Position numbers and translations under genes: made by a program
The notes under the pieces: generated by a model
Database searches by the model: none
Seen by the model: the letters and a program-made list of their open reading frames with translations, nothing else
Told to the model about the DNA's origin: nothing
In this document: piece by piece, positions 37,848 to 52,581 of the stretch
Layout of the letters: every line of letters begins with the position of its first letter
Numbering within the stretch: position 1 is the first letter of the stretch
Source: Geothrix sp. SG200
Lineage (GTDB): Bacteria; Acidobacteriota; Holophagae; Holophagales; Holophagaceae
Direction of reading: 5' to 3'
Assembly: GCF_022808935.1 (NCBI RefSeq)
Contig: NZ_JAKZFR010000005.1
Span: 62,001-126,000, forward strand
DNA: 64,000 nt

Positions 37848-39224
37848 TCACCCCTTGAACGAACTCACCGTCTCGAAGTAGTGGGCGAAGGCGGCGATGC
37901 CGCCGCTGGCCTGCTCCCAGTCGTAGTTCTCGTTGGGGGCGTGGTAGCCGTGGCTGGGGAGGCTGAGGCCCAGGAAGAAGACCTCGCAGCCCAGGATGTC
38001 CTCCATGGTCTTCACGGCGCCGATGCTGCCGCCCTCGCGGGTGAAGGAGCAGGGGGCATTGAAGGCGAACTTGTACGCGTCCTTGATGGCCTCGGCGTAG
38101 GGGCCGGTCACGTGGCCCTTGAAGGGGGCCAGGCCGTGCTCTTCGTGGAACTGCACGTCGGGGAAGTGCTCGTTCACGAAGGCGCGGATGCGCTCGATGG
38201 TCTTCGCCTCGTCCATGTCGGGCACCAGGCGGCAGGAGAGCTTCACCTCGGCCCGGGGCGGCACGGCGCTCTTGATGCCGGGGCCCGTGTAGCCGCCCAC
38301 GACGCCGTGGACCTCCATGGTGGGCCGGCCCCACACGCGCTTCATGACCTTGATGGGATCCTCCGTGCGCATGCCGGTGATCATGTGGTCCTTCTTGAAG
38401 GTCTCCACGCTGAAGCCCGCGTGGGCCCACTCCTCCAGTTCCTGCTTGGAGGGCTTCACCACTTCGTCGTAGAAGCCGGGGATCTTCACCTTGCCGGTCT
38501 CGCCGTCCATCATGGCGGCGACCACCTTGATGAGCTCGGCCAGGGGGTTGCGCGCCGCGCCGCCCACCACGCCGCTGTGCAGGTCGTGGTCCGCCGTCTC
38601 CAACGTGAGGCGGAAGCCCTTGAGGCCGCGCAGCCCGGCGGGGGTGCTGGGCTTGCCGCGGGTGATCCAGACCGTATCGCTCACCACGATGGCGTCGGTC
38701 TTCAGGCGGTCCTTGTGGCGGTTCAGGCCGCCCTCGAAGCTGGGCGAGCCGATCTCCTCCTCGGTCTCCCACAGGAAGTGGATGTTGAGGGGCACGCCCG
38801 CCTTCCGGGCGGCCAGGGCGCCGAAGAAGGCCGTCACCGCCGGGCCCTTGTCGTCCGTGCTGCCGCGGCCCCGATAGGTATCGCCGTCCACCACGAAGGT
38901 GAAGGGCTCCGCCGTCCACTCGGGCTCGTTGGCGGGCTGCACGTCCATGTGGTTGTAGACCGTGATGGTCAAGCAGCTGGGATCCTCCCCGAACCAACCG
39001 TGGATGAGCGGGTTGCCGCTGGTCTCCAGGATCTCGGCCTTGCCCCCGTGCCGCTCGAAGAGCGCCCGCGCGGCCTCGGCCACGCGCCGCACATCGCCCT
39101 GCCGGGCCGGGTCGGCGCTGATGGAGGGGATCTCCACCAGGGTCTTCAGCTCCGCTTCGAAGGCCGCACGGCTCGCGCTGGCGAACTGCCCCAGGGCTTC
39201 ACGGGTGAGAAGGGACGGATTCAT
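37848..39224 (-). CDS. M20-family metallopeptidase (dipeptidase)
   Basis: 458 residues from the ATG at 39224 (MNPSLLTREAL), with CCGGAG upstream. M20 metal motifs are present: YNHMDVQP, RGSTDDKGP, ETEEEIGSPSF. A dimerisation domain lies in the middle (about 185-310). It resembles the CNDP/PepV-like dipeptidases rather than ArgE. A terminator and argC flank it; there is no sign that it belongs to the arginine operon. Confidence 0.88.
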   Translation of the reverse strand: MNPSLLTREALGQFASASRAAFEAELKTLVEIPSISADPARQGDVRRVAEAARALFERHGGKAEILETSGNPLIHGWFGEDPSCLTITVYNHMDVQPANEPEWTAEPFTFVVDGDTYRGRGSTDDKGPAVTAFFGALAARKAGVPLNIHFLWETEEEIGSPSFEGGLNRHKDRLKTDAIVVSDTVWITRGKPSTPAGLRGLKGFRLTLETADHDLHSGVVGGAARNPLAELIKVVAAMMDGETGKVKIPGFYDEVVKPSKQELEEWAHAGFSVETFKKDHMITGMRTEDPIKVMKRVWGRPTMEVHGVVGGYTGPGIKSAVPPRAEVKLSCRLVPDMDEAKTIERIRAFVNEHFPDVQFHEEHGLAPFKGHVTGPYAEAIKDAYKFAFNAPCSFTREGGSIGAVKTMEDILGCEVFFLGLSLPSHGYHAPNENYDWEQASGGIAAFAHYFETVSSFKG

Positions 39225-39303: not shown

Positions 39304-40302
39304 TCAGCCCGGGTAGCCCCCCGCCACCTTCAGCCCGGTCCACTCCGGCAGTCCCAGGGCCAGGTTGAGGTTCTGCACGGCCTGGGCAGCCATGCCCTTG
39401 CCGAGGTTGTCCAGGGCCACCATCACGGCCCCGTGGCCACCCCTGGCCGCCACCGCGATGTCCGCGAAGGCGCTCCCCGTGGTGGCCGCCACCCGGGGCG
39501 ACCCATCCACCACCCGCACGAAGAAGCGGTCCTGGTAGAAGGCCTCGTAGCGGGCCCGCAGCGCCCCTGCGTCCACTCCGGCGGGCAGCGGGAATTGCGC
39601 GGTGGCGAAGATCCCCCGCACCATGGGCGCGCTCTGCGGAACGAAGCTGAGGGGCGCCTCCCAGCCTTCCGCCGCCAGGGTGCGCAGCACCTCGGCCTCG
39701 TGCTGGTGGCTGAGCATCTTGTAGGCGCGGAAGTCCGCGGCCCGCGTCGGATGGTGGGTGGTCTCGCTGGGCGCGGCGCCCGATCCCGAGGAGCCCGTGG
39801 CCGCCGTGACCGCCACGAAGGCGGGCTTCCACTGGGCCAGAGGTAGCAGGGCCAGCTGCAGGGCCGTGGCGAAACATCCCGGATTGGCGATGCGCCGGGC
39901 GCCCTTCATGCGCACGGGCTTCCAGTCCACCAGGCCGTAGACCCAGGCGGGATCCAGGCGGAAGTCCGTGGAGAGGTCGATGACGAGGAGGCGCTCCAGG
40001 AGGTCGTGATCCTTCCCCGCCGCCTCGATCTCCGGCCAGAGCTTCCCCAGCTCGCCGTGGGGCAGGGCCGAGAAGAGGACGGGGTTCGGGCTCTTCGCCA
40101 GGGCCGCCCAGTCCGGCGCGGCCTCGAAGCTGCCCTCCACCAGACCGCGCAGGTTGGGGTGCTGGGCGTGGAAGGGCTTGCCCGCGTGGCTGCGGGCCGT
40201 GCCGCGCAGGGAGGCCACCGCCGGATGGTTCGAGAGCCACCGCAGCAGCTCTCCCCCGCCGTAGCCCGACGCGCCGAGGATGAGGACATCGACTGAGGTC
40301 AT
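39304..40302 (-). CDS. argC: N-acetyl-gamma-glutamyl-phosphate reductase
   Basis: 332 residues from the ATG at 40302 (MTSVDVLILGASGYGGGELL). It reduces N-acyl-glutamyl phosphate to the semialdehyde with NADPH. The catalytic Cys is C143 in ANPGCFATAL. Located 115 bp after the P-loop gene with repeat D between. The acyl group may be acetyl or succinyl given the transcarbamylase in this cluster. Confidence 0.92.
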   Translation of the reverse strand: MTSVDVLILGASGYGGGELLRWLSNHPAVASLRGTARSHAGKPFHAQHPNLRGLVEGSFEAAPDWAALAKSPNPVLFSALPHGELGKLWPEIEAAGKDHDLLERLLVIDLSTDFRLDPAWVYGLVDWKPVRMKGARRIANPGCFATALQLALLPLAQWKPAFVAVTAATGSSGSGAAPSETTHHPTRAADFRAYKMLSHQHEAEVLRTLAAEGWEAPLSFVPQSAPMVRGIFATAQFPLPAGVDAGALRARYEAFYQDRFFVRVVDGSPRVAATTGSAFADIAVAARGGHGAVMVALDNLGKGMAAQAVQNLNLALGLPEWTGLKVAGGYPG

Positions 40303-40417: not shown

Positions 40418-41470
40418 TCAGACCTTCGCCGAGATCTTGGGCTCGACGAGGCCGAGGACGAACTTGCCGAGGGCGTCGGCGTCGGCGCGGGCATTGCGGG
40501 CGGGGAGGCCGAGGGTGGCCACGAAGCGCTCGCCCACGCGGTTGTCCGTGGCGGGGCCGGCCACCAGGTCCGTCTGGATGCCGAAGGCGGACTTCAGGTA
40601 CTGCACGCCGCCCGCCGCGCCCACGGGGTCGTTGGCGCAGAGGAGGAAGGCGCCGCCCAGGGCCTTGAGATCCGGGTCCGCGAGGATGGCCTGGACCCCG
40701 TACTCGCCCATGATGCCGTCGCCCGTCTCGGCCACGATGACGTCCACGCCGTGGGTCGCCAGCTCTGAGAAGATGATGCGCGACATGGCGGCGGCGGAGC
40801 CGGCGTCCGTGCAGACGCTGCCGGCGTCCGTGAAGTCCAGGGCGACTTCGGCGCCGTAGTCCCGCATGGCCAGGGCGTCGCGCATGAGCGACACGCCCGT
40901 GAGCTTGCAGCCGCCCACGCGGTAGCCCGCCCGGCTGAGCACGCGAATGGCGGCGCAGGCGGCGGCCGTCTTGCCCGCGTTCATGCAGGTGCCGGCCACG
41001 TAGACCACGGGGCAGTGGGGCGAGAGGCTGGTGCCCTTGAGGGCGCCCATGCGGATGTGGGCGGGCTGGCCGGCGCGGGACTGGAACTCGGGGAAGACGA
41101 GCACCTGGCCCAGAACTTCCAGCTCGAAGGGCTTGCCCACGTCGGGATTGTGGGAGAGGCACTTGCCGAGCACGCCGCCCATGTTGAGCAGGTTCACCGT
41201 GTCGCCGGGCTTCAGGGACTCGGGCATGACGCCCTCGTAGCCCTGCAGCGCGTTGCGGTGGCCCAGGGCCCCCACGACGATGTCCCCGTCATGCAGGGTG
41301 CTCATGCGCCCGTGGGGATCCTCCAGCTGGTTGTAGGTGGTCTTCTCGCCGCGGATGCGGCAGGCGATGACCGAGCCCTCCTCCAGGAGGATCTCCGGCC
41401 CGAGGGTGAGGGTCCGGCCCAGCCGCAGGTTGCGGGTGACCGAGGCGAGCTTGTCGACGTGGATGCGCAT
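40418..41470 (-). CDS. P-loop NTPase-like protein in the arginine cluster, unknown function
   Basis: 350 residues. N-terminal beta-rich domain (about 1-145), then a P-loop, GTCMNAGKT at 160-168 with K167, of the dethiobiotin-synthetase/DUF1611 kind; VIVAETGDGIMGEYGVQAIL and LCANDPVGAAGG follow. No signal peptide. It lies between argC and argG, same strand (24 bp from argG), so an arginine-related role is inferred. No arginine step obviously needs it. Confidence 0.7.
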   Translation of the reverse strand: MRIHVDKLASVTRNLRLGRTLTLGPEILLEEGSVIACRIRGEKTTYNQLEDPHGRMSTLHDGDIVVGALGHRNALQGYEGVMPESLKPGDTVNLLNMGGVLGKCLSHNPDVGKPFELEVLGQVLVFPEFQSRAGQPAHIRMGALKGTSLSPHCPVVYVAGTCMNAGKTAAACAAIRVLSRAGYRVGGCKLTGVSLMRDALAMRDYGAEVALDFTDAGSVCTDAGSAAAMSRIIFSELATHGVDVIVAETGDGIMGEYGVQAILADPDLKALGGAFLLCANDPVGAAGGVQYLKSAFGIQTDLVAGPATDNRVGERFVATLGLPARNARADADALGKFVLGLVEPKISAKV

Positions 41471-41494: not shown

Positions 41495-42682
41495 TCAGTT
41501 CGGCTTGGCCTTGAGGGTGAGGACCTGCTGGACGCCGAAGAGCTTGGCGAAGCCGGCGGCCTCGTCGCCGGTCCAGAGCTTGTTGGCCTCGCCGTAGGTG
41601 GCGATGCGGGGGTCCATCAGGGAGTAGGGCGACTGCACGCCTTCCACCACGAAGGCACGGGGGTGCAGGGTGAGGCGCACCTCCCCGCTCACGCGGTCCT
41701 GGCTGGACGCGAGGAAGGCCTCCAGGTCGCGGGCCAGGGGGTCGAAGAAGTGGCCTTCGTGGAGGAGGGAGCCGTAGAGGTTGCCCAGGCTCTCCTTCCA
41801 GAAGAGCTGCTTGCCGCTGAGCACGAGCTTCTCCAGCTCCCGGTGGGCGCCGATGAGCAGATGCGCGGCGGGGGCGTCGAAGCCCACGCGGCCCTTGATG
41901 CCCAGGATGGTGTCGCCCAGGTGAACGCCCCGGCCGATGCCGTAGGGGCGGCCCACGGCGTTGAGCTGGGCGATGAGGGTGACGGGGTCCATGCTGTTGC
42001 CGTCCAGGGAGACGGGCACGCCCTGCTCGAAGCCGATGACGAGCGACTTGGGGGCCAGGGTGCCGATGACGCCGCCGGGGAAGGCCGCCTCGGGCAGGGA
42101 GGTCCAGGGGTCGAGGGTCTCGCGGCCGCCCACGCTGGTGCCCCACATGCCCTCGTTGATGGAGTAGTCCTTCGTCTTCGGGGGGAAGATCACCCCCCGG
42201 TCGGCGCAGTAGGCCATCTCCTCGGCCCGGGAGAGGGCCAGGTCGCGGATGGGGGTGAGCAGGCCCAGCTCGGGTGCCAGGGCGCGGAAGGCCACGTCGA
42301 AGCGCACCTGGTCGTTGCCGGCGCCCGTGGAGCCGTGGGCGATGGCAGCGGCGCCCATGTCCTTGGCCAGCTCCGCCACGGCCTTGGCCTGGCAGACCCG
42401 CTCGGCGGAGACGGACAGCGGATACATCTGGCCCCGCAGCACGTTGCCGTAGACCAGGTAGCGCAGGTAGCCGTCGAAGAGCCCGGCCCGGGCATCCACC
42501 GTGGTGTGGCTCACGGCGCCGAGCTTGGGCGAGGCGGCCTCGATGCGGGCCAGCTCCTCGGGCGAGAAGCCGCCGGTGTTCACCGTGACCGTGGCCACGT
42601 CGTAGCCCTGCTCCTTGAGGTAGAGCACGCAGAAGGAGGTGTCGAGACCGCCCGAGAAGGCGAGAACGGCGAGCTGGCTCAT
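41495..42682 (-). CDS. argG: Argininosuccinate synthase
   Basis: 395 residues from the ATG at 42682. It joins citrulline and aspartate with ATP. The PP-loop AFSGGLDTSFC (8-18) and the HGSTGAGNDQVRFDVAF block are conserved. In an N-acyl route it acts after the acylcitrulline has been deacylated. 11 bp from argH. Confidence 0.95.
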   Translation of the reverse strand: MSQLAVLAFSGGLDTSFCVLYLKEQGYDVATVTVNTGGFSPEELARIEAASPKLGAVSHTTVDARAGLFDGYLRYLVYGNVLRGQMYPLSVSAERVCQAKAVAELAKDMGAAAIAHGSTGAGNDQVRFDVAFRALAPELGLLTPIRDLALSRAEEMAYCADRGVIFPPKTKDYSINEGMWGTSVGGRETLDPWTSLPEAAFPGGVIGTLAPKSLVIGFEQGVPVSLDGNSMDPVTLIAQLNAVGRPYGIGRGVHLGDTILGIKGRVGFDAPAAHLLIGAHRELEKLVLSGKQLFWKESLGNLYGSLLHEGHFFDPLARDLEAFLASSQDRVSGEVRLTLHPRAFVVEGVQSPYSLMDPRIATYGEANKLWTGDEAAGFAKLFGVQQVLTLKAKPN

Positions 42683-42693
42683 GGGGAATCCTT

Positions 42694-44052
42694 TCAGGCG
42701 GTCCAGAGGGCGGTTTCGGCGTCGGCGTGCTGCTTCTGCTTGGCTTCGATCCACCCTCGGGCGGCGGCCAGGTCGGCTTCGAGGGCGTCCAGGGCTAGGT
42801 TGCCGGCGCCGCCCAGGTGGGTGGCGGTGAGGGCGCTGCGGTCCGGGGCGAAGGTGCCGTCCTGGATCTGCTGCGCCACCTTGCGGTAGGCCTCGCGGAA
42901 GGGCAGGCCCCCCTGCACGAGGACATAGGCCTGGTGGGCGGCGTAGAGCTCGTCGCTGGAGGCGTCCGCGGCGGCCCCGGCCTTCACCTGGAGGGCGGGC
43001 AGCAGGGGCGTCAGCACGCCGAAGAGGTCGTCCGCGTGCCGGAGGGCGGTGATGAGCGGCTGCTTCAGCAGCTGGAAGTCCCGGTGGTAGCTGGAGGGCA
43101 GGCCCGAGGCCAGCTGCTCCACCAGCCCCGCGGCGCCCCGCAGCTCCCGGCAGCGGCCGCGCGCCAGCTCGACGACGTCCGGGTTCTTCTTCTGAGGCAT
43201 GATGCTCGAGCCCGTGGTGAAGGCGTCCGGCAGCTTGAGGAAGCCGAACTCCTGGGTGCTGTAGAGGGAGACGTCCCACAGGAACTTCTCCAGCACGCCG
43301 CCCACGGAGGCGGCCCACTGGAGCACGGCGGCCTCGTGGCGGCCCCGGCTGTTCTGCACATCGATGGGGCTGCGCTGCACCTTCGAGAAGCCCAGCAGCT
43401 TCGCCGTGAGCGCCCGGTCGATGGGCAGGGGCACGCCGAAGCCCGCGGCCGAGCCCAGGGGGCAGCGGTCCAGACGGCCGTACACGCCCTGCAGCGCCTC
43501 CAGCTCCTCCAGCAGGCCCTCGGCGAAGGCCGTGGCCCAGAGGCCGAAGGTGCTGGGCATGGCCCGCCGCAGGTGGGTGTAGCCCGGCAGGGGGATGTCC
43601 TGGTTCGCCTTCGCGAAGGCCAGGAAGCCCTCGGCCAGGTCCGCCACGCGCAGGCCCAGGCGCACCAGCTTGTCCCGGAGGTAGAGGCGCAGGGCCAGGA
43701 TCACCTGGTCGTTGCGGGAGCGGCCCAGGTGGATGCGGGCGCCGGCCGGGCCTAGGTGCCGGGTGAGGTCGGCCTCGATGGCGGTGTGGCCGTCCTCCAT
43801 GTGGGGCGGGATGGGGAAGGCCCCCTGCTTGGCGAGGTTGGCGATGCGCCGCAGGCCCCGCACCAGCGAGACGGCATCGGCCTCGGGGATGAGGCCCGTG
43901 GCGGCCAGCATCTTCGCGTGGGCGGCGCTGCCCAGGGCGTCCCAGGCCAGGAGGGCCAGGTCCGTCTCGGGATCCTCGCCCACGGTGAAGCGGTGGATGG
44001 CCGCGTCAAGGGGGACATCCTTGGCCCAGAGGGTGGTGGCTTCCGGCCTCAT
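42694..44052 (-). CDS. argH: Argininosuccinate lyase
   Basis: 452 residues from the ATG at 44052. It splits argininosuccinate to arginine and fumarate. The superfamily signature GSSIMPQKKNPD is intact, as are HLGRSRNDQV and GYTHLRRAMP. Its start overlaps the deacylase stop (ATGA). Confidence 0.95.
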   Translation of the reverse strand: MRPEATTLWAKDVPLDAAIHRFTVGEDPETDLALLAWDALGSAAHAKMLAATGLIPEADAVSLVRGLRRIANLAKQGAFPIPPHMEDGHTAIEADLTRHLGPAGARIHLGRSRNDQVILALRLYLRDKLVRLGLRVADLAEGFLAFAKANQDIPLPGYTHLRRAMPSTFGLWATAFAEGLLEELEALQGVYGRLDRCPLGSAAGFGVPLPIDRALTAKLLGFSKVQRSPIDVQNSRGRHEAAVLQWAASVGGVLEKFLWDVSLYSTQEFGFLKLPDAFTTGSSIMPQKKNPDVVELARGRCRELRGAAGLVEQLASGLPSSYHRDFQLLKQPLITALRHADDLFGVLTPLLPALQVKAGAAADASSDELYAAHQAYVLVQGGLPFREAYRKVAQQIQDGTFAPDRSALTATHLGGAGNLALDALEADLAAARGWIEAKQKQHADAETALWTA

Positions 44053-45110
44053 GGCTGCACCTGCATCTTGAAGAACGCGGGGACGAGCTTGGCATAGAAG
44101 TCCGCGCCGGCCTCGAGTTCCTGGATGGTCAGGTACTCGTTGGGGCTGTGGCTGCGGAAAGTGTCGCCGGGGCCGGCCTTCACCGCCGGGATGCCGCCAA
44201 GGAAGGCCCAGTCGGACGTGGTGCCGGAGCCCACGGGACCTGCCTTCTTCGCGGCCTGGAGGGCGGCGCGGACGATGGCGTGGCCCGGATCTGTGCCCTT
44301 GGGCAGGTAGCGCTTGGAGTGGATGGCGACTTCGCTCTCCAGCTGCCGCTGGAAGTCGGCGCACAAGGCGTCGTGGTCCTGGTCCGGGCCCGTGCGGAGG
44401 TCGATGAAGAACTCGCAGGCGTCGGGCACCTGGTTGCGGCGCAGGCCGCCGCTGATCTGGGTGACCTGGGCCTTCTGGCTGCCCAGCAGCGGATGGGCCG
44501 GGAAGTCCATGGCCGCGACCTTGGCGATGTCCCGGGCGGCCTTGTGGATGGCGTTCTCGGCGCCCAGCATCTGGGCGTTGGCCACGTGGCCGCTCTGGCC
44601 CCGGGCCGTGCACTTGAGCAGCAGCATGCCCCGCTGGGCGGCGCAGATCCGCAGCCCCGTGGGCTCGCCCACCACCGCACCCTCGAAGGGGCCGAGCGGG
44701 TCGAGGATGGTGGCGATCCCGTTCCCCCCGGTCTCCTCCTCGGCCGTGAGGGCCACCACCACCTCGCCGCCGAGATCCTGCTTCGACAGCTCGAAGGCCG
44801 AGAGCAGGATGGCGGCCACGCAGCCCTTGGCGTCGTTGGCGCCCAGGCCCTGGAGCCGCGAGCCGTGCCAGACGGGCGTGAAGGGGTCGCCCTCCCAGCC
44901 GGCGCTGGGGGGCACGGTGTCCAGGTGCGAATTGAGCAGCAGTCGGGCCCCGCCCTTCTTCCCGAAGGAGAACCAGAGGTTGTTCCCCTGGCGCCGGGCT
45001 TCGAAGCCCTGCGCGGAGACAAGGCTCTGCACCAGGTCCGCGAGGGGGCCCTCCTCGCCGGACACGCTCGGCGTGCCCACCAGGAGCGTGAGCAGCTCGG
45101 CGGGGCTCAT
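44049..45110 (-). CDS. ArgE-like M20 deacylase, probable N-acylcitrulline deacylase
   Basis: 353 residues from the ATG at 45110. M20 motifs LLNSHLDTVPP, GANDAKGC, LTAEEETGGNG and GEPTGL are present, with a dimerisation domain in the middle. Together with the transcarbamylase of the acetyl/succinyl-ornithine type, it probably removes the acyl group from N-acylcitrulline rather than from N-acetylornithine. Overlaps argH and argB by ATGA on both sides. Confidence 0.85.
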   Translation of the reverse strand: MSPAELLTLLVGTPSVSGEEGPLADLVQSLVSAQGFEARRQGNNLWFSFGKKGGARLLLNSHLDTVPPSAGWEGDPFTPVWHGSRLQGLGANDAKGCVAAILLSAFELSKQDLGGEVVVALTAEEETGGNGIATILDPLGPFEGAVVGEPTGLRICAAQRGMLLLKCTARGQSGHVANAQMLGAENAIHKAARDIAKVAAMDFPAHPLLGSQKAQVTQISGGLRRNQVPDACEFFIDLRTGPDQDHDALCADFQRQLESEVAIHSKRYLPKGTDPGHAIVRAALQAAKKAGPVGSGTTSDWAFLGGIPAVKAGPGDTFRSHSPNEYLTIQELEAGADFYAKLVPAFFKMQVQP

Positions 45111-46039
45111 GGCTTGGTCCCGGCCGGGGCGGCGCCGGAGGCGAACCCAGTTACGATCATCGTCCCGCTGCCCTCGTTGGTGAAGATCTCCGCCAGCAGG
45201 GCGTCCGGAGCGATCCCGCTCACCAGGTGGGCGCTGGAGACGCCGCCCTGGAGGGCCGCCTTCACGGCCGCGAGCTTGGGCCGCATGCCGCCGCTGATGA
45301 TGCCCTTGGCCTCGAAGGTTGCGAGTTCGTCCAGGGTGGCGTGGGGGATGAGGGACGAGGCCTTTTTGACGTCCTTCAGCAGGCCCGGCACGGAGAGCAG
45401 GAAGAACAGCTTCTCGGCGCCCAGGGCCGTGGCCAGGCTGGCGGCGATGGTGTCGGCGTTCGTGTTGTAGATGGCGCCGTCCTCCCCTCCGGAGAGGGGC
45501 GCCACCACCGGCACGAAGCCCCCTTCGAGCAGGTGGCTGAGCACGTGGGGATCCACGGCGTCGATGTCGCCCACCAGGCCGTAGTCCACCAGCTGGGGCT
45601 CGGTGGCGCCGTCGGGCACCACGGGCACGGGGGGCCGCCTGGTGGCCTTCAGCAGGCCGGCATCCAGCCCCGTGAGGCCCACGGCGGGCAGGCCGGCGGC
45701 CTGCAGCTCCGCCAGCAGGTCCATGTGCACCTGGCCCGCGAAGACCATCTTGGCGGCGTCCAGCACCTTGGGGCTTGTCACCCGCCGGCCCGCCACCTTC
45801 TGCACCGGGATGTCCATGGCCTCGCAGACGGCGTCCAGCTCCGCGCCGCCGCCATGCACCACCACCACCCGGATGGAGAAGGACCACAGCAGGGCGATCT
45901 GCTCGCAGAAGGCCTTGCGGATCTTGGGCTCGGCGAGGACCTCGCCGCCCACCTTCACCACGAAGGTCTTCCCGCGGAAGAGGCGGACGTAGCGGGAGGC
46001 TTCCTTGAGGGCGGCGTAGGGATTGGGGGAGAGCGGCAT
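45107..46039 (-). CDS. argB: N-acetyl(acyl)glutamate kinase
   Basis: 310 residues. Conserved FVVKVGGEVLAEPKI and VVVVHGGGAELD; Asn/Asp residues of NTNADTIAASLATALGAEKL and ISGGMRPKLAAVKAAL confirm the amino-acid kinase fold. It phosphorylates N-acylglutamate. The N-terminal helix (about 1-20) is the kind present in arginine-sensitive hexameric forms. Confidence 0.92.
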   Translation of the reverse strand: MPLSPNPYAALKEASRYVRLFRGKTFVVKVGGEVLAEPKIRKAFCEQIALLWSFSIRVVVVHGGGAELDAVCEAMDIPVQKVAGRRVTSPKVLDAAKMVFAGQVHMDLLAELQAAGLPAVGLTGLDAGLLKATRRPPVPVVPDGATEPQLVDYGLVGDIDAVDPHVLSHLLEGGFVPVVAPLSGGEDGAIYNTNADTIAASLATALGAEKLFFLLSVPGLLKDVKKASSLIPHATLDELATFEAKGIISGGMRPKLAAVKAALQGGVSSAHLVSGIAPDALLAEIFTNEGSGTMIVTGFASGAAPAGTKP

Positions 46040-46133: not shown

Positions 46134-47126
46134 TCAGCGCTGCGACAGCAGCGCGTGGATGGTGGCCCGCTGCACGTGGAAGCGGTTCTCGGCCTCGTCC
46201 ACCACGCGGCTCCAGGGGCCGTCGAGGACGCTGTCGTGGACTTCCAGGTTCCGGCGCACGGGCAGGCAGTGGGTGAAGATGGCCTCCTTCGCGGCCTTCT
46301 GCATGTGGGCGGCGGTCGGCATCCAGGCCGAGAGGTCGGCCATGGGCGCGGCCTCCAGGCCCGAGGTGGTGGAGGGGCCCCAGGCCTTGGCGTAGACGGC
46401 GGCGCTGCCCTCCAGGGCGGCGTCCTGGTCCGTGGTGTAGACGATCTTCCCGCCGGTGGCCGCGGCGTACTTTTCGGCCTCGGCCCGCACCTCGGGCGCC
46501 AGCTCGTAGCCCTTGGGGTGGGCCACGCGGATCTCCGCCCCGCAGGCCGCGGCCGTCAGGAGGAAGGAGTTGGGCACGGCCTTGGGCAGGGGCTTCATGT
46601 GGGGCGCCCAGGTGAGGGTGACGGGCACCTTCGTGGTGCCGTGGGCCTCCTGGATGGTGAGGAGGTCGGCGAGGCCCTGGTGCGGGTGCTCCCGGGCGCT
46701 CTCCATGCTCAGCACGGGCACGGTGGAGAAGCGCCGGAAGGCGTTGATGACGGGATCCAGCTCATCGACGTCGTCGCCGTCGCCGTGGCTGAAGGTCCGC
46801 ACGGCCAGGGCGTCCGCGTACCGGCCCAGCACGGGCACGCCCTCGCGCACGTGCTCGGCCCGGTCCTGGTCCATGACGGTGCCGTCCCGGTCCTCCAGCT
46901 TCCAGGTGCCGGCTCCCACCTCGAGCACGATGGCGTGGCCGCCGTGCCGCAGCATGGCCGCCTCGAAGCTGGCCCGGGTCCGCAGGCTGGGGTTGAAGAA
47001 GACCATGCCCAGGATGCGGTCCGCGAAGATGGCGCCGGGGCGCTCCTTCTTCCAGGCCGCGGCGGTCTTGAGGATCTCCGCCACTCCGGCGGGACCCAGG
47101 TCGGCGATGCGGGTGAAGTGCTTCAT
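46134..47126 (-). CDS. N-acylornithine carbamoyltransferase (acetyl/succinyl-ornithine type)
   Basis: 330 residues. FFNPSLRTRASFE carbamoyl-phosphate loop, GTWKLEDRDGTVMDQD, SMESAREHPHQGLADL, LTWAPHMKPLPKAVPNSF and HCLPVRRNLEVHDSVLD match the Xanthomonas AOTCase/Bacteroides SOTCase branch, not ordinary ArgF. The residue that decides acyl choice (Glu92 in Xanthomonas, Pro in Bacteroides) is Ala at position 90 here (DQDRAEHVRE). It transfers the carbamoyl group to N-acylornithine. Confidence 0.88.
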   Translation of the reverse strand: MKHFTRIADLGPAGVAEILKTAAAWKKERPGAIFADRILGMVFFNPSLRTRASFEAAMLRHGGHAIVLEVGAGTWKLEDRDGTVMDQDRAEHVREGVPVLGRYADALAVRTFSHGDGDDVDELDPVINAFRRFSTVPVLSMESAREHPHQGLADLLTIQEAHGTTKVPVTLTWAPHMKPLPKAVPNSFLLTAAACGAEIRVAHPKGYELAPEVRAEAEKYAAATGGKIVYTTDQDAALEGSAAVYAKAWGPSTTSGLEAAPMADLSAWMPTAAHMQKAAKEAIFTHCLPVRRNLEVHDSVLDGPWSRVVDEAENRFHVQRATIHALLSQR

Positions 47127-47145: not shown

Positions 47146-47270
47146 GGAACCGCGAATGGCGCGAATCGCCCTTCGGGCGCGCGAATGGGAAAGCGGAAGG
47201 AAAGGTTGGGTCAGGGAAGGGCAGCCGTCAGGCCATCATTTGCGAACATTCGCGTCATTCGTGGTTTCAA
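47146..47270. repeat. Dispersed inverted repeat C, copy 2
   Basis: Left arm GGAACCGCGAATGGCGCGAA... (47146-47189), right arm CATTCGCGTCATTCGTGGTT... (47237-47270), matching the outer arms of the element at 30777-30985 but with a shorter, unrelated centre. Its right end reaches the argD stop at 47267-47269. Confidence 0.75.
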
Positions 47271-48406
47271 GCCTTGAAGGACTTGATGGCGGCGATGAGG
47301 GCCTCGAGGGCTTCGCCGCTGACGTTGAGGGGCGGCATGAGGCGCAGCACCTGGGGATCGCCGGAGCCGCCCAGGAGGATGTTCTGGGCCATCAGGTGCT
47401 TCTTGAGGGCCGCGGCGTGAGGCGTGCGGAGGCCGAGGAGCAGCCCCTCGCCCTGGATGGCCTCGACCACAGATCCCTTCAATTCCTTCCGAAGCTGCTC
47501 GGCGGCTTCGGAAGCCCGCGCCATCAGCCCTTCCGCCTCGATGACGTCCACCGTGGCCAGCAGGGCCGCGCAGGCCAGGGGGCCGCCGCCGAAGGTGCTG
47601 CCCAGGTCGCCGCCCTTGAGCTTGGAGGCCACGGCGGCGGTCATGAGGAGCGCCCCCATGGGCACGCCGGAGGCCAGGCCCTTGGCGGAGGTCATGAGGT
47701 CGGGGCGCACGCCGTAGAACTGGGCGGCGAAGGGCGTGCCCATGCGGCCCATGCCGGTCTGGATCTCGTCGAAGATGAGCAGGGTTCCGGTGGCGTCACA
47801 CTTGGCGCGCAAGGCCTGGAACCACTCGGGGGAGGCGGTCTTGATGCCGGCCATGCTCTGGATGGGCTCGAGGATGACGCCGGCCACGTCCGAGAAGTCC
47901 GCCGTGTCGAGGGCCGCCAGATCGCCGAAGGGCAGGCGCAGGCAGGGGGTGAGGCTGTCCGCGAAGGGCTGGGTGATCTTGGGGTCGTCGGTCACCGAGA
48001 GGGCCAGGGTGGTCCGCCCGTGCCACCCGCCGTCGAAGGCGCCGAGCGTCTTGCGGCCCGTGAGCAGCAGCGCGACCTTCAGGGCGTTCTCGTTGGCCTC
48101 GGCGCCGCTGTTGCAGAAGAAGACCGAGTCCATGCCCGAGAAGGCGGTGATCTTCGCGGCGGCGGCGTCCCGCACGGGCAGGGCCGCGGCGGCGGAGTAG
48201 AAGAGCAGCGAGGCGGCCTGGTCGGCCACGGCCTGCACCACCTTGGGGTGGCTGTGGCCCGTGGCGCACACGCAGTGGCCGCCGTAGAAGTCCCACCAAG
48301 CCTGGCCCCGGTCGTCGAAGACCCGGTCGCCTTCGCCCTTCACCAGCGGGAAGGGGTAGGGGGCGTAGGTGGGGAGGAGGGCGGGGACGGCGGGGCTGGG
48401 CAGCAT
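47267..48406 (-). CDS. argD: Acetylornithine (acylornithine) aminotransferase
   Basis: 379 residues from the ATG at 48406, behind AGGATC; longer starts at 48433 or 48493 would translate the operator region. A class III PLP transaminase: FFCNSGAEANENALK, LIFDEIQTGMGRMG, SAKGLASGVPMGA with the PLP lysine, and STFGGGPLACAA. It converts the semialdehyde to N-acylornithine. First gene of the divergent arginine transcription unit facing argR. Confidence 0.92.
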   Translation of the reverse strand: MLPSPAVPALLPTYAPYPFPLVKGEGDRVFDDRGQAWWDFYGGHCVCATGHSHPKVVQAVADQAASLLFYSAAAALPVRDAAAAKITAFSGMDSVFFCNSGAEANENALKVALLLTGRKTLGAFDGGWHGRTTLALSVTDDPKITQPFADSLTPCLRLPFGDLAALDTADFSDVAGVILEPIQSMAGIKTASPEWFQALRAKCDATGTLLIFDEIQTGMGRMGTPFAAQFYGVRPDLMTSAKGLASGVPMGALLMTAAVASKLKGGDLGSTFGGGPLACAALLATVDVIEAEGLMARASEAAEQLRKELKGSVVEAIQGEGLLLGLRTPHAAALKKHLMAQNILLGGSGDPQVLRLMPPLNVSGEALEALIAAIKSFKA

Positions 48407-48543: not shown

Positions 48544-48560
48544 CATGCAATTTCATGCAA
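48544..48560. promoter_or_regulatory. Candidate ArgR operator upstream of argR
   Basis: CATGCAATTTCATGCAA, two TGCAA half-sites ten bases apart, directly before the argR start; consistent with autoregulation. Confidence 0.45.
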
Positions 48561-48569
48561 CATCCGTGC

Positions 48570-48974
48570 ATGGATCTGGATCAGCTCATCCTCCGGCTGC
48601 TGGAGGCCCACCCCATCGCGGACCAGACGGACCTGCTGGAGAAGCTGTCCGCCGAGGGCCACGAGCTCACCCAGTCCACCCTGTCCCGGCGCCTCAAGCG
48701 CCTGGGAGTTCAGAAGGTCCAGGGCCGCTACCGCCGGGTGGAGGCCGCCACCCAGGTGCTTCCGGACGTCACCCTGACCGAGGTTCCGCCCAACCTGCTG
48801 GTGCTGCGCACCGCGCCCGGATTCGCCCAGGCCCTGGGCCTCAGCCTCGACGCCGATCCCGTTCCCGGCCAGATGGGCACCCTCGCCGGTGACGACACGG
48901 TCTTCGTGGCCGTGCTGCCGGAGCGCCTGGCTGAGGTGAAGGCCCACCTCGCGCGGGTGGTGGCGGCGCGGTAG
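48570..48974 (+). CDS. argR: Arginine repressor
   Basis: 134 residues from the ATG at 48570 (MDLDQLILRLLEAHPIADQ); an in-frame ATG at 48555 would add five residues, and neither has a clear ribosome site. N-terminal winged helix with TQSTLSRRLKRLGVQKVQG; C-terminal arginine-binding/hexamer domain with GTLAGDDTVFVA. It faces argD divergently and probably represses both promoters. Confidence 0.92.
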   Translation: MDLDQLILRLLEAHPIADQTDLLEKLSAEGHELTQSTLSRRLKRLGVQKVQGRYRRVEAATQVLPDVTLTEVPPNLLVLRTAPGFAQALGLSLDADPVPGQMGTLAGDDTVFVAVLPERLAEVKAHLARVVAAR

Positions 48975-50925: not shown

Positions 50926-52581
50926 CTATCTCGGGCTCGCTGTACGGGCGCCTGCGGGGGGACGGATCAGGTCCTCGAGGGGGGCCAGGGATCCGTCGGG
51001 GCGGACTCGACCCCTGGCCAGGGGGTATCCGGCTGCTTCCGCCTTCTGGTACCAGACCTTCGCCTGTTCCAGGTCCTTCTTGACCCCGATCCCCTGGTGG
51101 TGGATCAGGCCGAGATGGAACATCGCCGGGGCCCACCCCAGGTCCGCGGCGGCCGTGAAGAGGTTTAGGGCTTTCGAGGGGGATCGGGGGACCACTTCGC
51201 CGTTCTGGTACAGAAGGCCCAGTTCAAACGTACCCTCCGGATGATGTTGATCCTTCAGTGCCTCAAGGATATGGAGGGCCTGCGTCCGTTCGGCAGAGGA
51301 ACCGTGGGCCAGGGTCTTGGCCCACTCGAGCTTCGCCCCTGGCCCACCCTGTTCAGCAGCCTTGGACAGGAGGTCGGATCCCACTGCGATGTACTGCTTT
51401 CCCAGCACGCCGCCGCTCAGAAGGCGAAGGGTCATGGGAAGCAGGGGACTCGGGGACTGGGATCCCTGTTCCTCGGCGACCAGGGCCCGGATCCGTGCCG
51501 GATCGGCAGGGGAGTCCCCACGGCGGATCAGCAGCAGCGCCAGGGGCAGGCGGAACCGGCCCCGCCCGGCCGCGAGGTCCTTCTCCATCCATCCGGCCAC
51601 GCTGTCGGCCTCCTGGAGGGTGGGCCGGTAGCCGGTGACCAGGACACGGACCAGCCCGTCGATGGACGCGTCCCATCCCTGGGCGGCCCCGAGCGAGTGG
51701 TAATGGAAAGCCAGACCGAGGTCCCGCTCCACCCCATGGAAGCCCTCATAGACCTGGCCCAGATGCTCCTGGGACAGGTGGTCGCCGGCATCGGCGGAGA
51801 GCTTGAACCACCGCAGGGCGGTGGCCATGTTCTTCGGGACCCCGAGGCCATTCTGGTAGAGGTAGCCGAGGTTGCCGTCCGCCCGGGCCCAGCCGAGCGA
51901 GGAGGCGGACTCGAACAGCCGCCGGGCTGTGCCGTAGTCCTTCTGGAGCCCGCCCATCCCCTCGACGAAGAACCACCCGAGGTTGGTCATTGCCATCGCG
52001 TTCCCACTGCGGGCGGCCACGGCGTACATCTGGGCGGCCGCCGCCTCGTTCTTCGGAACCCCCCGGCCCGATTGGGTGAGCCAGCCGAGGGAGGCCAGGG
52101 AGTCCATGTCCCCCAGCTTGGAGGCCTTCTCATGCCATTCGGCGGCCAACCGGTCGTCCTGCTCGATCCCGCGGCCCAGCTCGTACATCCAGCCGAGCAT
52201 GTGGGTGGCGTAGCGGTGGCCTTGCTTCGCGGCCTGCTGGAAGCAGGTGAACGCCTTCGCCTCATCCACCGGGAGCCCACCCAGTCCCTTCATGTAGAAC
52301 CAGCCCAGGTCGGCCTGGGCATCGGCGAAGCCCTTGGCCGCGGCCTGCTGGTACAGGGCGGCGGCCTTCGTCTCGTCCTTGGGCAAGCCCATGCGCCCTT
52401 CGGCGTACCGCTCGCCGAGCTGGTGCGCGGCCGCGGCATCCCCCTGGGAGGCCGCTTTCTGGAGGGCCTCGTTCGATGGGGGCTGGAGGGGCCCTGCGGT
52501 GGCTGGGGTCTGGCCCCCGGCATCGGGATGCATACCCGCCAGGGGAAGGGCCAAGAGACACAGGGTGGCGAGAAAGGCCAT
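50926..52581 (-). CDS. Sel1-repeat exported protein
   Basis: 551 residues. Signal peptide (about 1-20, LATLCLLALPLAGM), then about ten 36-residue Sel1-like repeats with the A-x-x-x-L-G-x-x-Y/F-x-x-G pattern (ADAQADLGWFYMKGLGGLP, ADGNLGYLYQNGLGVPKN). A spacer of about 170 residues without repeats lies at 305-440. Probably a periplasmic scaffold. Convergent with the EnvC-like gene. Confidence 0.85.
   Translation of the reverse strand: MAFLATLCLLALPLAGMHPDAGGQTPATAGPLQPPSNEALQKAASQGDAAAAHQLGERYAEGRMGLPKDETKAAALYQQAAAKGFADAQADLGWFYMKGLGGLPVDEAKAFTCFQQAAKQGHRYATHMLGWMYELGRGIEQDDRLAAEWHEKASKLGDMDSLASLGWLTQSGRGVPKNEAAAAQMYAVAARSGNAMAMTNLGWFFVEGMGGLQKDYGTARRLFESASSLGWARADGNLGYLYQNGLGVPKNMATALRWFKLSADAGDHLSQEHLGQVYEGFHGVERDLGLAFHYHSLGAAQGWDASIDGLVRVLVTGYRPTLQEADSVAGWMEKDLAAGRGRFRLPLALLLIRRGDSPADPARIRALVAEEQGSQSPSPLLPMTLRLLSGGVLGKQYIAVGSDLLSKAAEQGGPGAKLEWAKTLAHGSSAERTQALHILEALKDQHHPEGTFELGLLYQNGEVVPRSPSKALNLFTAAADLGWAPAMFHLGLIHHQGIGVKKDLEQAKVWYQKAEAAGYPLARGRVRPDGSLAPLEDLIRPPAGARTASPR

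Follow-up and report, generated by a model that had tools for sequence, protein, structure and literature searches.

A predicted succinyl-type arginine operon in Geothrix sp. SG200 and a P-loop protein as candidate for its missing first enzyme

The window analysed here, a stretch of 64,000 nucleotides from Geothrix sp. SG200, carries an arginine operon whose N-acylornithine transcarbamylase has the marker residues of a succinylornithine transcarbamylase (SOTCase) instead of those of an acetylornithine transcarbamylase (AOTCase), and in which an uncharacterised P-loop protein, here called gene X (P0003), is encoded between argG and argC. Taken as a whole, a succinyl-type pathway with gene X as its first enzyme appears to us a fairly probable explanation of this locus. 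In such a pathway, gene X would acylate glutamate, argB, argC and argD would turn the acylglutamate into N-acylornithine, the transcarbamylase would add the carbamoyl group to N-acylornithine, the M20 deacylase would take off the acyl group, and argG and argH would complete arginine synthesis.

The operon and its transcarbamylase

Among the best 80 of the 494 relatives found in a scan of GTDB genomes, the named ones nearest to the window belong to Geothrix, and the operon is of the Geothrix type. On the minus strand it reads argD-SOTCase-argB-argE-argH-argG-X-argC-dipeptidase, with argR divergent:

48555-48974, plus strand: argR, divergent arginine repressor
47267-48406, minus strand: argD-like N-acylornithine aminotransferase
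46134-47126, minus strand: N-acylornithine transcarbamylase of the SOTCase type, 330 amino acids (from the ORF, PDB and NCBIfam matches, and alignment)
46857-46859, minus strand: codon of Ala90 of the transcarbamylase (Glu92 in Xanthomonas campestris, Pro90 in Bacteroides fragilis; from the alignment)
46584-46586, minus strand: codon of Pro181 (Asn185 in X. campestris, Pro in SOTCases; from the alignment)
46242-46244, minus strand: codon of Glu295 (Lys302 in X. campestris, V/I/E in SOTCases; from the alignment)
45107-46039, minus strand: argB-like N-acylglutamate kinase, without a GNAT domain
44049-45110, minus strand: argE/dapE-like deacylase of the M20 family, its start overlapping the argB stop
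42694-44052, minus strand: argH, argininosuccinate lyase, its start overlapping the deacylase stop
41495-42682, minus strand: argG, argininosuccinate synthase
40418-41470, minus strand: gene X (P0003), uncharacterised P-loop protein of 350 amino acids, between argG and argC
40967-40993, minus strand: P-loop GTCMNAGKT, residues 160-168 of gene X
39304-40302, minus strand: argC, N-acyl-gamma-glutamyl-phosphate reductase
37848-39224, minus strand: M20 dipeptidase, end of the cluster

Elsewhere in the window, a minus-strand ORF at 50926-52581 contains repeats that, judged by eye, resemble the Sel1 type.

A preliminary description of this DNA had placed a protein of the AOTCase/SOTCase branch at 46134-47126 without giving the strand. 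The ORF is on the minus strand, with an ATG start and a TGA stop, and no transcarbamylase gene was found on the plus strand of this interval. Membership of the branch was borne out: the NCBIfam model NF003384, N-acetylornithine carbamoyltransferase, matched with 395 bits (cut-off 288), and in the PDB the sequence was most similar to X. campestris AOTCase, both wild type and mutant, and to B. fragilis SOTCase. The motifs SxRT, HPxQ (here HPHQ) and HCLP and the Arg typical of the branch are all present, the carbamoyl-phosphate residues being S47, R49, T50, W75, R110, H147, Q150, C287, L288 and R315, and for the second substrate E142 and K247 are retained. The blocks GTWKLE and TWAPHMKPLPKAVPNSF, which had been taken to bring the protein closer to its Bacteroides counterpart, were both found. 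That closeness held for residues 30-200 (149 bits for B. fragilis against 128 for X. campestris) and in an unrooted FastTree phylogeny of about 154 columns, where the B. fragilis enzyme clusters with the clade of the window enzyme (support 0.963), but not in the full-length phmmer search, which gave 215-219 bits for the X. campestris entries and 209-212 for those of B. fragilis. Over the fragment that the aligned B. fragilis sequence covers, the window enzyme is about equally close to both, with identities of 46.7% to X. campestris and 47.7% to B. fragilis. The enzyme seems to be an unremarkable representative of a known succinyl-type group in arginine synthesis. Two more carbamoyltransferase-like genes occur in the same genome, at G000:C5:6872-7813 (L002) and G000:C1:381712-382611 (L003), with 29 and 28% identity, respectively, to the window transcarbamylase.

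Acyl specificity of the transcarbamylase

In the available part of PMC4581275, the two activities are told apart by positions 92, 185 and 302 of the X. campestris enzyme, with A/S/P/V/Q, P and V/I/E, respectively, in SOTCases, and Glu92, Asn185 and Lys302 in AOTCases. By the rule as given there, the window enzyme, with A90, P181 and E295, is of the SOTCase type at all three positions; the AOTCase triad was not found in it. The alignment confirmed the Ala reported earlier at the switch position: Ala90, and no other residue, falls on X. campestris Glu92 and B. fragilis Pro90. The implied oddity of this Ala did not survive the wider comparison, in which some genomes are common to the two sets used. 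The residue at position 92 is T in 22, A in 11, S in 5, P in 4, and V and I in one each of 44 additional homologues from Acidobacteriota, and among 66 loci of named genomes it is A in 52, P in 10 and Q in 3, with one gap; Glu occurs in none of the 44 and in none of the 65 readable sequences of the second set. Ala90 as an unusual feature is thus ruled out, a residue other than Glu being the rule across the acidobacterial and myxococcal group. Position 185 is P in 44/44 and in 64 of the 66 (one A, one gap); at position 302, 42 of the 44 have E, V or I and the other two have K, and all of the 66 have E.

With A90, P181 and E295 all of the SOTCase type, the succinylated pathway predicted in the preliminary description is strengthened, and we consider a succinylated rather than an acetylated pathway likely. 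A small residue at position 90 instead of Glu would leave space for the succinyl carboxylate beside H176, K178 and R291, which stand in the window enzyme for the succinyl binders H176, R178 and R278 of B. fragilis. The rule itself is founded on few assayed enzymes, and the Thr of 22 and the Ile of one of the 44 acidobacterial homologues at position 92 are absent from its list of SOTCase residues. The transcarbamylase might instead act on N-acetylornithine, or on both substrates, in an acetylated pathway, Ala90 being drift within the AOTCase family. This would agree with the name of NF003384, with K178, which is also Lys in the X. campestris AOTCase, and with the accessible text of PMC1865377 and PMC1382215, where Myxococcus xanthus, which has an operon like this one, is treated as having an acetylated linear pathway. 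We nevertheless hold it to be unlikely, as the three published marker positions are all of the SOTCase type and are conserved in the group, and NF003384 may fail to distinguish one activity from the other: according to the portion of PMC7311316 (GapMind) at hand, a SOTCase was misannotated as AOTCase in Swiss-Prot.

The missing first step and gene X

No match to ArgJ was found in the genome of the window, and its sole match to TIGR01890, the model of two-domain ArgA, at E <= 1e-30 was the kinase domain of argB, below the cut-off. ArgA scored over the cut-off in 5/297 acidobacterial genomes, all five of which also have ArgJ. According to the available text of PMC11561045, Acidiparvus is scored as complete for arginine and other Holophagaceae as lacking N-acetylglutamate synthase, the first enzyme. 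Two genomes of about 1.2 Mb (L136, L137), perhaps the Acidiparvus of that study, retain an arg operon like that of the window, gene X and dipeptidase included; if they are, Acidiparvus and the other Holophagaceae were scored differently there despite the same gene order.

Strong homologues of gene X and ArgJ were never found together in the genomes compared. With strong matches defined as E <= 1e-40 for X and E <= 1e-60 for the SOTCase branch, X was detected in 78 of the 297 acidobacterial genomes (85 at E <= 0.001) and ArgJ in 115, with an overlap of zero between the 78 and the 115. The phylum set of M. xanthus (156 genomes) contains 58 genomes with strong X, 66 with ArgJ and none with both. 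Genome-level p-values for this exclusion are inflated by relatedness within shared clades; by family labels (n = 78), X is present in 18 and ArgJ in 26, again with no overlap (p = 3.4e-4). At E <= 0.001, ArgJ occurs in 4 of the 85 acidobacterial and 1 of the 59 X-positive genomes of the M. xanthus phylum. Weak homologues (E 1e-17 to 1e-28, in seven acidobacterial genomes and G364) were left out of the X counts; four of these seven genomes, and G364, have ArgJ. Outside the Acidobacteriota, neither ArgJ nor ArgA over the cut-off was found in any of 37 named X-bearing genomes, which account for 37 of the 48 loci L126-L173. Six loci with weak homologues (L074-L079; 29-34% identity) have no arg gene nearby, and three of the six genomes (G018, G136, G250) have ArgJ, so that these distant homologues are likely a paralogous family with another role.

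Strong X is closely linked to arginine genes, being near them in 123/124 loci of Acidobacteriota, Myxococcaceae and gammaproteobacterial MAGs. An arg gene lies within 3 kb of it in 43/44 acidobacterial regions, 32/32 Geothrix-like loci and 48/48 other named loci, and argC is directly downstream in 42/44 (L033-L093), 31/32 and 46/48 of them, respectively, some genomes belonging to more than one of these sets. The M. xanthus homologue of X, in L173, has 67% identity. The exceptions to this adjacency are L082, L119 and L152, where no further gene was matched (contig ends or fragments), and L044 and L135, where the gaps are longer. A strong SOTCase match was present in 74/297 acidobacterial genomes, 66 of them with strong X, and 12 genomes have strong X without a strong SOTCase match, including four (G088, G185, G207, G239) that may be assembly fragments. 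In six loci (L047, L048, L060, L061, L068, L069) X stands beside argC-argD-argB without SOTCase, suggesting that X tracks the acylated steps from glutamate. Conversely, X was absent at E <= 0.001 from seven genomes with a SOTCase operon (G116, G125, G133, G157, G165, G188, G211), and no convincing replacement first enzyme was seen among the ORFs of these seven loci, judged by eye; in an eighth such genome, G072, the locus stops at a contig edge. Also judged by eye, a GNAT-like ORF lies in L054, flanked by genes resembling thiE and queA. The locus L166, from a record titled Comamonas sp. KCTC 72670, has the Myxococcus-type arg order with identities similar to those of Myxococcus loci; the genome, of 9.0 Mb, is one of those in the phylum set of M. 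xanthus, and the name of the record looks wrong.

Because neither ArgJ nor ArgA was found over the cut-off, the linkage of X to arg genes is conserved, and strong X and ArgJ exclude each other, gene X is a candidate for the synthase; that it forms N-acylglutamate, and so supplies the missing first step, seems to us reasonably probable from these genomic patterns. A different division of labour, which we find not very likely, would have a stand-alone GNAT elsewhere in the genome make N-acylglutamate; X would then be an accessory P-loop protein of the operon that serves, for instance, in metal delivery or in nucleotide-dependent maturation. The P-loop domain of X does also resemble MeaB, HypB and MobB, and GNAT synthases of the BT3761/Cabys_1732 type, described as another type of first-step enzyme in the consulted part of PMC7311316, lie outside the synthase models searched. 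The short GNAT synthase PRK07922, however, gave no match in the genome of the window and scored over the cut-off in 0/25 genomes, and two ArgA-like GNAT matches that were scanned, in M. xanthus (L194) and in a gammaproteobacterial MAG (L196), were rejected, both being ArsN2 over the cut-off. Moreover, exclusion between X and ArgJ in two phyla would be unexpected of an accessory factor, and X is present in operons without SOTCase as well as in operons without the M20 deacylase. The latter are five loci of gammaproteobacterial MAGs (L142, L143, L150, L154, L155), which have X and SOTCase but lack an M20 deacylase gene in the argB-argH interval; they must encode the deacylating enzyme at another place or use a different one. 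The M. xanthus ArsN2-type acetyltransferase (L194:685-1529) adjoins an arsenate-reductase-like gene, and its weak score as an ArgA GNAT domain could mislead annotation.

Gene X might also supply carbamoyl phosphate to the transcarbamylase, with which it shares an operon, and enzymes of the BioD fold handle carbamates with ATP. Such a role is very improbable and was set aside: the genome of the window has a full CarB (TIGR01369, 1417 bits, cut-off 1027), and X is found in argC-argD-argB clusters without a transcarbamylase.

As to the protein itself, gene X matched no Pfam family at E <= 0.001, and NCBIfam gave only a weak cobQ match; text searches in a partial coverage of the literature found no paper that, judged by its title and the opening of its abstract, describes it. 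K167, T168, K189 and E248 are invariant in 34/34 members of the family, and D215 is kept in at least 90%. An AlphaFold2 model from the 34-row alignment had a pLDDT of 95.3 and a pTM of 0.92. Its P-loop domain was closest to the DUF1611 structure 2g0t (Z 17.1 over 174 residues, rmsd 2.7), followed by CTP synthase (Z about 16), 2obn (15.2), dethiobiotin synthetase BioD (about 15) and DgcN (7xrj, 14.7), where values within 1 Z unit count as tied; in the model, the domain is BioD/DUF1611-like. In sequence, hhalign against 12 DgcN/DUF1611-like proteins aligned the P-loop domain only (E 6.7e-6, probability 84.7), PF07755 (DUF1611) reached 13.7 bits on X (cut-off 25), and NF041892 (DgcN, cut-off 480 bits) was reported for 1/34 members with a best E of 0.01 and had no match in the genome of the window at E <= 1e-20. 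BioD gave an ungapped match over the P-loop and the next strand (E 0.025), placing Lys189 of X on Lys37 of BioD. The N-terminal domain is beta-rich in the model (pLDDT 93.1 when modelled alone) and, searched alone, had no clear PDB match (best Foldseek E 0.33, best VIA Z 3.1 among the PDB chains aligned), which does not imply a new fold.

DgcN, a member of DUF1611, is named N-acetyltransferase in PDB entry 7xrj and in NCBIfam. By analogy, the likeness of X to these proteins allows either acyl-CoA transfer, in keeping with the name of DgcN, or, as for BioD, a ligation driven by ATP. There is perhaps an even chance that X is the founding member of a class of synthases that make N-acylglutamate (probably N-succinylglutamate) and are unrelated to GNAT and ArgJ, combining a BioD-like P-loop domain with a beta-rich N-domain of its own and possibly joining succinate and glutamate at the expense of ATP.

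Implications and comparison with known systems

Succinylated arginine synthesis is described for Bacteroidetes in the part of PMC7311316 available to us, and its prediction now extends to Acidobacteriota and Myxococcaceae. If X does make N-acylglutamate, the gap reported for Holophagaceae, as the accessible text of PMC11561045 has it, would be filled, a family below the Pfam and NCBIfam cut-offs would gain a function, and predictions in which these bacteria come out without the first step to arginine would be corrected; in Holophagaceae and many other Acidobacteriota, and also in Myxococcaceae such as M. xanthus, X would then catalyse the opening step of arginine synthesis.

The window transcarbamylase resembles the B. 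fragilis SOTCase (PDB 1js1, 2fg6) in its SOTCase-type markers and in the conserved W75, E142, H147, Q150 and H176, and differs from it in overall sequence (47.7% identity over 153 columns), in A90 for P90 and in K178 for R178. With the X. campestris AOTCase (PDB 3kzc; mutants such as 3l02) it shares 39% identity and all the carbamoyl-phosphate residues of the review, whereas E92, N185 and K302 of that enzyme are replaced by A90, P181 and E295. As to the first step, X. campestris has a bifunctional NAGS-K, as far as the available part of PMC1865377 goes, whereas argB of the window has no GNAT domain; the succinylated pathway of Bacteroidetes begins with an enzyme of the BT3761 type, and the operon of the window contains the P-loop gene. 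Gene X is like DUF1611/DgcN (7xrj, 2g0t, 2obn) in the fold of the P-loop domain (Z 14.7-17.1), with weak profile homology. In place of the GKT and the invariant Lys189 of X, most of the DgcN-like proteins carry GKK or GKR together with a GTGQT segment. Their families also differ from X in the N-domain, which is Rossmann-like in DUF1611 and beta-rich without a clear PDB match in X, and X scores below the Pfam and NCBIfam cut-offs. DgcN acts on D-glutamate. With BioD, X has in common the P-loop and the next strand, Lys189 in the place of Lys37, and a structural similarity of Z about 15, and it is set apart from BioD by the low sequence similarity (E 0.025), the extra N-domain and the context of an arg operon.
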